NCBI GenBank assembly: GCA_029248915.1
Contig: JAQWIK010000061.1
Coordinates: forward strand, 1-42,719
Direction of reading: 5' to 3'
From: Paracoccaceae bacterium
Lineage (GTDB): Bacteria; Pseudomonadota; Alphaproteobacteria; Rhodobacterales; Rhodobacteraceae
Length of the DNA stretch: 42,719 nt
Below, in pieces: positions 1,007-8,816 of the stretch; positions within the stretch are counted from its first letter, which is position 1; the number at the start of each line of letters is the position of its first letter. Position numbers and translations under genes: made by a program. The notes below the pieces were generated by a model. The model did not search any database, had not been told where the DNA came from, and was given only the letters and a program-made list of their open reading frames with translations.

Positions 1007-8816
<7,810 letters not shown>

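Follow-up and report, generated by a model that had tools for sequence, protein, structure and literature searches.

In the draft genome of an uncultured marine member of the Rhodobacteraceae, the reading frame of bchN, which encodes the N subunit of the dark-operative protochlorophyllide reductase (DPOR), is interrupted by a TAG codon beyond which the same frame continues up to the start of bchB. This locus raises the question of whether the stop is a real mutation, is tolerated during translation, or is an error of the draft sequence. We analysed it in a stretch of 42,719 nucleotides, hereafter the window, and in the remaining assembly (G000), by comparison with related genomes.

The bchN reading frame and its in-frame TAG

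The gene starts from an ATG at 1542 or, alternatively, at 1536, which makes the TAG codon 356 or codon 358, respectively. A sequence-only reading of the locus had claimed that the stop is followed by a BchN-like continuation of 69 codons and by an ATGA overlap with bchB, and both are borne out by the sequence and by profile matches (Table 1). The 69-codon tail, when compared separately, matched positions 349-412 of the NCBIfam model NF002768 (E 2.4e-26) and positions 336-399 of TIGR01279 (E 2.2e-20), and no second internal stop was present in the frame. The total of 425 codons, like that of functional BchN, was likewise confirmed, and cysteines 26, 51 and 112 were found in the translation where that reading had placed them, inside the region aligned to PDB 3aer chain A; BchN supplies three cysteines to the cluster, as stated in PMC12518044.

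The 355-residue product that ends at the TAG lacks the conserved C-terminus, which is still encoded in frame downstream. It passed NF002768 (477.3 bits, cut-off 324) and remained under the cut-off of TIGR01279 (372.3 bits against 419.95), for which the full-length protein of a relative scored 463.8 bits. The family PF00148 reaches residue 408 in a relative and only residue 336 in the truncated protein, and the solved structure covers the lost region, the query aligning as far as residue 420 with 3aer as far as its residue 432. Across the 90 rows of the alignment described below, the commonest residue of each column accounted on average for 91% over the first 60 positions of the tail and for 82% before the stop; because of this conservation the tail, to judge from the sequence, is no chance open frame.

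Table 1. Coordinates of bchN, its in-frame TAG and associated features in the window.
Feature	Position	Strand	Evidence
bchN before the stop, 355 codons	1542..2606	+	NF002768, TIGR01279; PDB 3aer chain A matches query 7-354
In-frame TAG, private to this genome	2607..2609	+	Gln (CAG/CAA) in 89 other rows
Continued bchN frame, 69 codons	2610..2816	+	NF002768; 1 nonsynonymous and 18 synonymous differences from G001
Natural bchN stop TGA, ATGA overlap with bchB	2817..2819	+	Sequence
GTG-started ORF, 66 codons, re-initiation possible in principle	2619..2819	+	No ribosome-binding site by eye
bchB, intact, 512 aa	2816..4354	+	TIGR01278, 586.2 bits, cut-off 490.35
bchL, intact	7912..8817	+	TIGR01281, 436.4 bits, cut-off 345.15

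The arrangement agrees with that of known BchN (DPOR subunit N; NF002768, TIGR01279; PDB 3aek, 3aer, 8vqh), with bchB directly after bchN and bchL further on, and the three cysteines, the 425-codon frame and the conserved tail are also shared; the TAG at codon 356 is seen in the window gene alone among the 90 rows aligned. Another, intact copy of bchN was searched for in the same genome and none was found, and an Rfam search of the window gave no matches. We take the neighbouring genes to be bchF, bchH and bchM. Further along, after crtB, positions 22917-42239 hold a region resembling sugar-acid catabolism, with dehydratases, several NAD-dependent dehydrogenases and a TRAP transporter, all named by eye.

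Conservation of the site and selection on both halves of bchN

The coding sequence of the window was aligned with those of 80 loci and of nine further relatives' loci, some of them perhaps from the same genomes, leaving out six rows from genomes already represented (L014-L017, L019, L021) and a fragment (L029). At the TAG site, the 90 rows comprised 52 CAG, 37 CAA and the single TAG of the window, so that glutamine is encoded in 89 of the 89 other rows and TAG in none of them. Within the genus, the DNA surrounding the site was matched in 9 of 16 genomes, the present one included, and the eight others all encode glutamine; the seven with no match to the bchN stretch are just 53-81% complete. 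In one of these seven, G012, bchN was seen only as a fragment (L029) running off the end of a contig.

The nearest three relatives have CAG at the site, in agreement with the proposed origin of the stop by a single C-to-T change. It had also been suggested that CAG in sibling genomes would mark the TAG as a base error. This holds in part: CAG was indeed found, but only in other species; even the nearest relatives are 88-91% identical to the window over 431 bases at the bchN site and are therefore taken to be distinct species.

To date the stop, selection on the two halves of the gene was evaluated from pairwise Nei-Gojobori counts, from which G007 was left out because its distance makes dS unstable. 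Before the stop, dN/dS was 0.046-0.052 against G001, G002 and G015, compared with 0.048-0.054 among those three genomes; in the tail it was 0.012-0.069, compared with 0-0.062 among the relatives. A three-point estimate put the bchN changes on the branch of this genome at 11.25 nonsynonymous and 52.25 synonymous, and those on the branch of G001 at 9.25 and 51.25, respectively, while the neutral expectation on the former is about 230 nonsynonymous changes (about 967 sites, with dS on the branch near 0.24). Constraint on the two halves of bchN thus matches that in the relatives and, therefore, the stop would be either very young, with an age below roughly 5-8% of the branch (11 nonsynonymous changes, or 18 at a generous count, out of 232), or absent from the organism. 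A decayed pseudogene was rejected, as dN/dS was not raised and neither frameshifts nor further stops were found in bchN.

Relaxed selection was tested by dN/dS in bchN, bchB, bchL and bchH and was not seen, the values of the latter three being inside or close to the range of the relatives, a result that speaks against an established loss of this reductase. The match of G001 to crtI is a different gene and was excluded from this comparison. In bchF, which adjoins bchN (window 1007-1552), dN/dS was slightly higher, 0.097-0.177 compared with 0.073-0.167 among the relatives, and 9 of 181 residues are private to this genome.

Breaks elsewhere in the assembly and the expected error rate

We examined 474 kb of the 2.02 Mb assembly for other interrupted genes, sampling G001 and G002 as controls and retaining stops that fell within 12-90% of the gene length. 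Besides bchN, three further private breaks were found in conserved genes. In an SDR-family gene, a GAA-to-TAA change gave an in-frame stop (L006:1780-1782, corresponding to G000:C33:3679-3681) with the remaining frame intact, and the six matching relatives have three GAA, one GAG and two GAT, that is Glu or Asp, at this site. The gene of a BMP-family transporter binding protein (PF02608) carries a TCA-to-TAA change on the minus strand (L184:7917-7919, corresponding to G000:C50:27917-27919), where the nine relatives compared, out of 18 matched, have Ser. The third is a one-base frameshift in L182, near G000:C96:57421-57463 on the minus strand, in a gene which by eye is pseudouridine synthase-like; a base is missing before an A run, as seen by comparison with G002 only. 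The stop of the SDR gene came to light through the search for a light-dependent enzyme reported below.

With this genome as the target, the comparison covered 133 genes of G001, 63 of G002, 55 of G007 and 55 of G015; with G001 as the target, 136 of G000, 17 of G002, 38 of G007 and 36 of G015; and with G002 as the target, 63 of G000, 16 of G001, 13 of G007 and 14 of G015. A full-length counterpart was available for 206 of 425 ORFs in this genome, 138 of 447 in G001 and 64 of 376 in G002, so that half of the ORFs or less were tested. No break within a conserved gene body was seen among the testable ORFs of the two controls; the excess in the present assembly is not statistically firm, the controls being small and with little overlap. 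The window and the contig of the SDR gene were selected for their own stops, which biases the counts there, and outside of them one nonsense codon and one frameshift were found in 424 kb. A codon-usage scan flagged 40 candidate stops in this genome, compared with 38 in G001 and 22 in G002, and in a PF00005 family search of six genomes internal stops were absent among the matches listed.

Several candidate stops were dropped. Those at C96:29863, C96:29875 and C7:891 of this genome, at C6:30796 and C6:30808 of G001 and at C1:127620 of G002 lie ahead of the conserved part of the gene. Those at C85:17190, G001 C5:64861 (coordinates of this contig count from its base 40001), G007 C81:18713 and G015 C23:13336/13360 belong to ORFs roughly 100 aa long that share one place where, judged from the coordinates, opposite strands are open in different genomes. 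In G015, a TAA was also observed at codon 22 of bchF (G015:C23:24414, in L155), with CAA in four other genomes compared; it is probably ahead of the true start, and we take codon 22 to precede the BchF core. It falls outside the 12-90% filter and, like other stops near gene ends, was not counted.

In PMC11247762, which deals with marine single-cell and metagenome assemblies, the error rate quoted for benchmark cultures taken through one single-cell workflow is 5 mismatches and 3 indels per 100 kb. A stop is created by 169 of the 3,816 possible single-base changes to the codons of bchN; with 0.9 of the genome assumed to be coding, about 4 false nonsense codons would be expected at this rate over 2.02 Mb, and 0.84 over the 424 kb, of which about half is testable; the one observed is in line with it. 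For indels, the expectation is about 14 over the sampled 466 kb and about 13 over the 424 kb, more than the one frameshift seen with about half of the ORFs testable. The contigs of this assembly are not ordered by size (C7, 42,427; C61, 42,719; C102, 114,787; C109, 80,441), whereas those of G001 and G002 are. This hints at a metagenome bin; in that case the single-cell error rate need not apply.

The bchN change consists of one base, is private among the genomes examined and sits in a gene without decay. An ordinary private nonsense mutation and a base error of a draft genome look alike in these respects, one base, private, with the frame otherwise intact, and nothing sets the bchN TAG apart from them. 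With moderate confidence, we favour a base error as the most likely source of the TAG. According to this explanation, the living lineage would have an intact, functional bchN into which the draft sequence introduced the TAG; the breaks would arise from amplification, sequencing or assembly, even if the other private breaks of this assembly could be real mutations. The cell would make an ordinary BchN of 425 aa which, together with BchB and BchL, would act as the usual dark-operative protochlorophyllide reductase.

Alternatives to a base error

A real and very recent nonsense mutation, whose allele would be young and probably not fixed, is the next most likely explanation, which we regard as less probable than a base error. 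After all, the assembly does show a TAG, for which a single transition suffices, and the missing tail belongs to the conserved fold, as indicated by the extent of the PF00148 match. The cell would then make a 355-aa BchN without its conserved C-terminus; loss of the reductase activity would be expected and, because the bchB start overlaps the natural bchN stop, the coupling of translation would be broken and bchB would probably be translated more weakly, leaving less BchB. Without the dark-operative reductase, no bacteriochlorophyll would be made and the life of the organism would be heterotrophic. Phototrophy may be dispensable in the genus, as the seven genomes without a bchN match could suggest; however, these are the same incomplete genomes mentioned above, and G012 does hold its fragment. 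Moreover, the absence of relaxed selection confines the allele to the last 5-8% or so of the branch, to come upon an allele this young, in a gene that is conserved, from a single genome would be unlikely a priori, and similar-looking breaks occur elsewhere in the same assembly. In the titles and opening lines of abstracts, which cover the literature in part, no comparable case of a bchN nonsense codon or of a stop in a photosynthesis gene was found.

It is very unlikely that the TAG is real and tolerated, either by suppression or readthrough, or because the 355-aa piece would be complemented by a C-terminal piece re-initiated at GTG 2619. The sequence is conserved in both halves of bchN and this GTG lies 9 bases past the stop; nevertheless, it is common to the two nearest relatives (L043 and L044), and no ribosome-binding site was apparent by eye in front of it. 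The RNA from the stop onward was predicted to fold better than its shuffles (z -3.05), which looked promising as a recoding hairpin, and a similar first hairpin was predicted in the relative L043. The candidate was rejected, since the other four of the five relatives folded do not keep the structure, and the z of the relatives ranged from -0.06 to -3.70 although they have no stop there.

The view of the sequence-only reading that TAG is a normal stop in this organism was upheld. Release factor 1 is present (482.9 bits, cut-off 423), and TAG ends 66 of the 335 sampled ORFs of at least 200 aa having a stop, the broken bchN included. Within the window, five other ORFs of at least 100 aa end in TAG, namely puhB, hemA, crtB and an LtnD-like gene, as named in that reading, and bchB. 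A changed genetic code was rejected on the presence of the release factor and because TAG-ended ORFs run no further to the next in-frame stop (median of 8 codons, compared with 8 for TGA-ended and 8.5 for TAA-ended ORFs). The suppressor tRNA(CUA) whose search had been proposed was not recovered: none of the 24 tRNA places, an incomplete set from a 90%-complete genome, has a CUA anticodon, 23 of them having been typed by ARAGORN and the 24th reading GAA by eye. The latter is a tRNA-Phe-like sequence (L146:1501-1559) that covers only model positions 7-64, was not called by ARAGORN and lies some 1.6 kb beyond a normal tRNA-Phe of that contig. The locus resembles known systems of amber suppression or programmed readthrough in the open, conserved frame past the stop, and differs from them in that the stop is not conserved, no suppressor tRNA was found, release factor 1 is present and the RNA fold is not kept in four of the five relatives folded. 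With no relaxed selection and no such tRNA seen, the earlier proposal that, if the stop is real, the reductase is lost or depends on readthrough was not supported.

Least credible of all is a loss of the dark-operative enzyme in which a light-dependent protochlorophyllide reductase (LPOR) encoded elsewhere in the genome has taken its place: some aerobic phototrophs do carry LPOR, according to PMC7947762, and the model cut-off was exceeded in 1 of 295 genomes of the family, but the best score in this genome, which is 90% complete so that absence is not absolute, was 33 bits compared with a cut-off of 331, and bchB and bchL are intact and under constraint. At E 1e-30 no LPOR was found in this genome and 60 relatives (16 of the 61 belong to the genus; among the larger genomes some first-look candidates were unscored), and the search worked on the positive control, with four matches at this threshold among the 295 family genomes, one being that above the cut-off. 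The replacement was rejected on these grounds, and the pigment synthesis through LPOR that had been envisaged for this organism was searched for and not found.

If the stop were nevertheless real and fixed, the dark-operative reductase would be in the course of being lost from a phototroph in whose genome no light-dependent substitute was seen. With a base error in bchN as the preferred explanation, the locus is mainly a caution: lone private stops in draft genomes of uncultured bacteria should not be equated with gene loss without the reads, and the selection acting on either side of a stop offers a quick test of its age.
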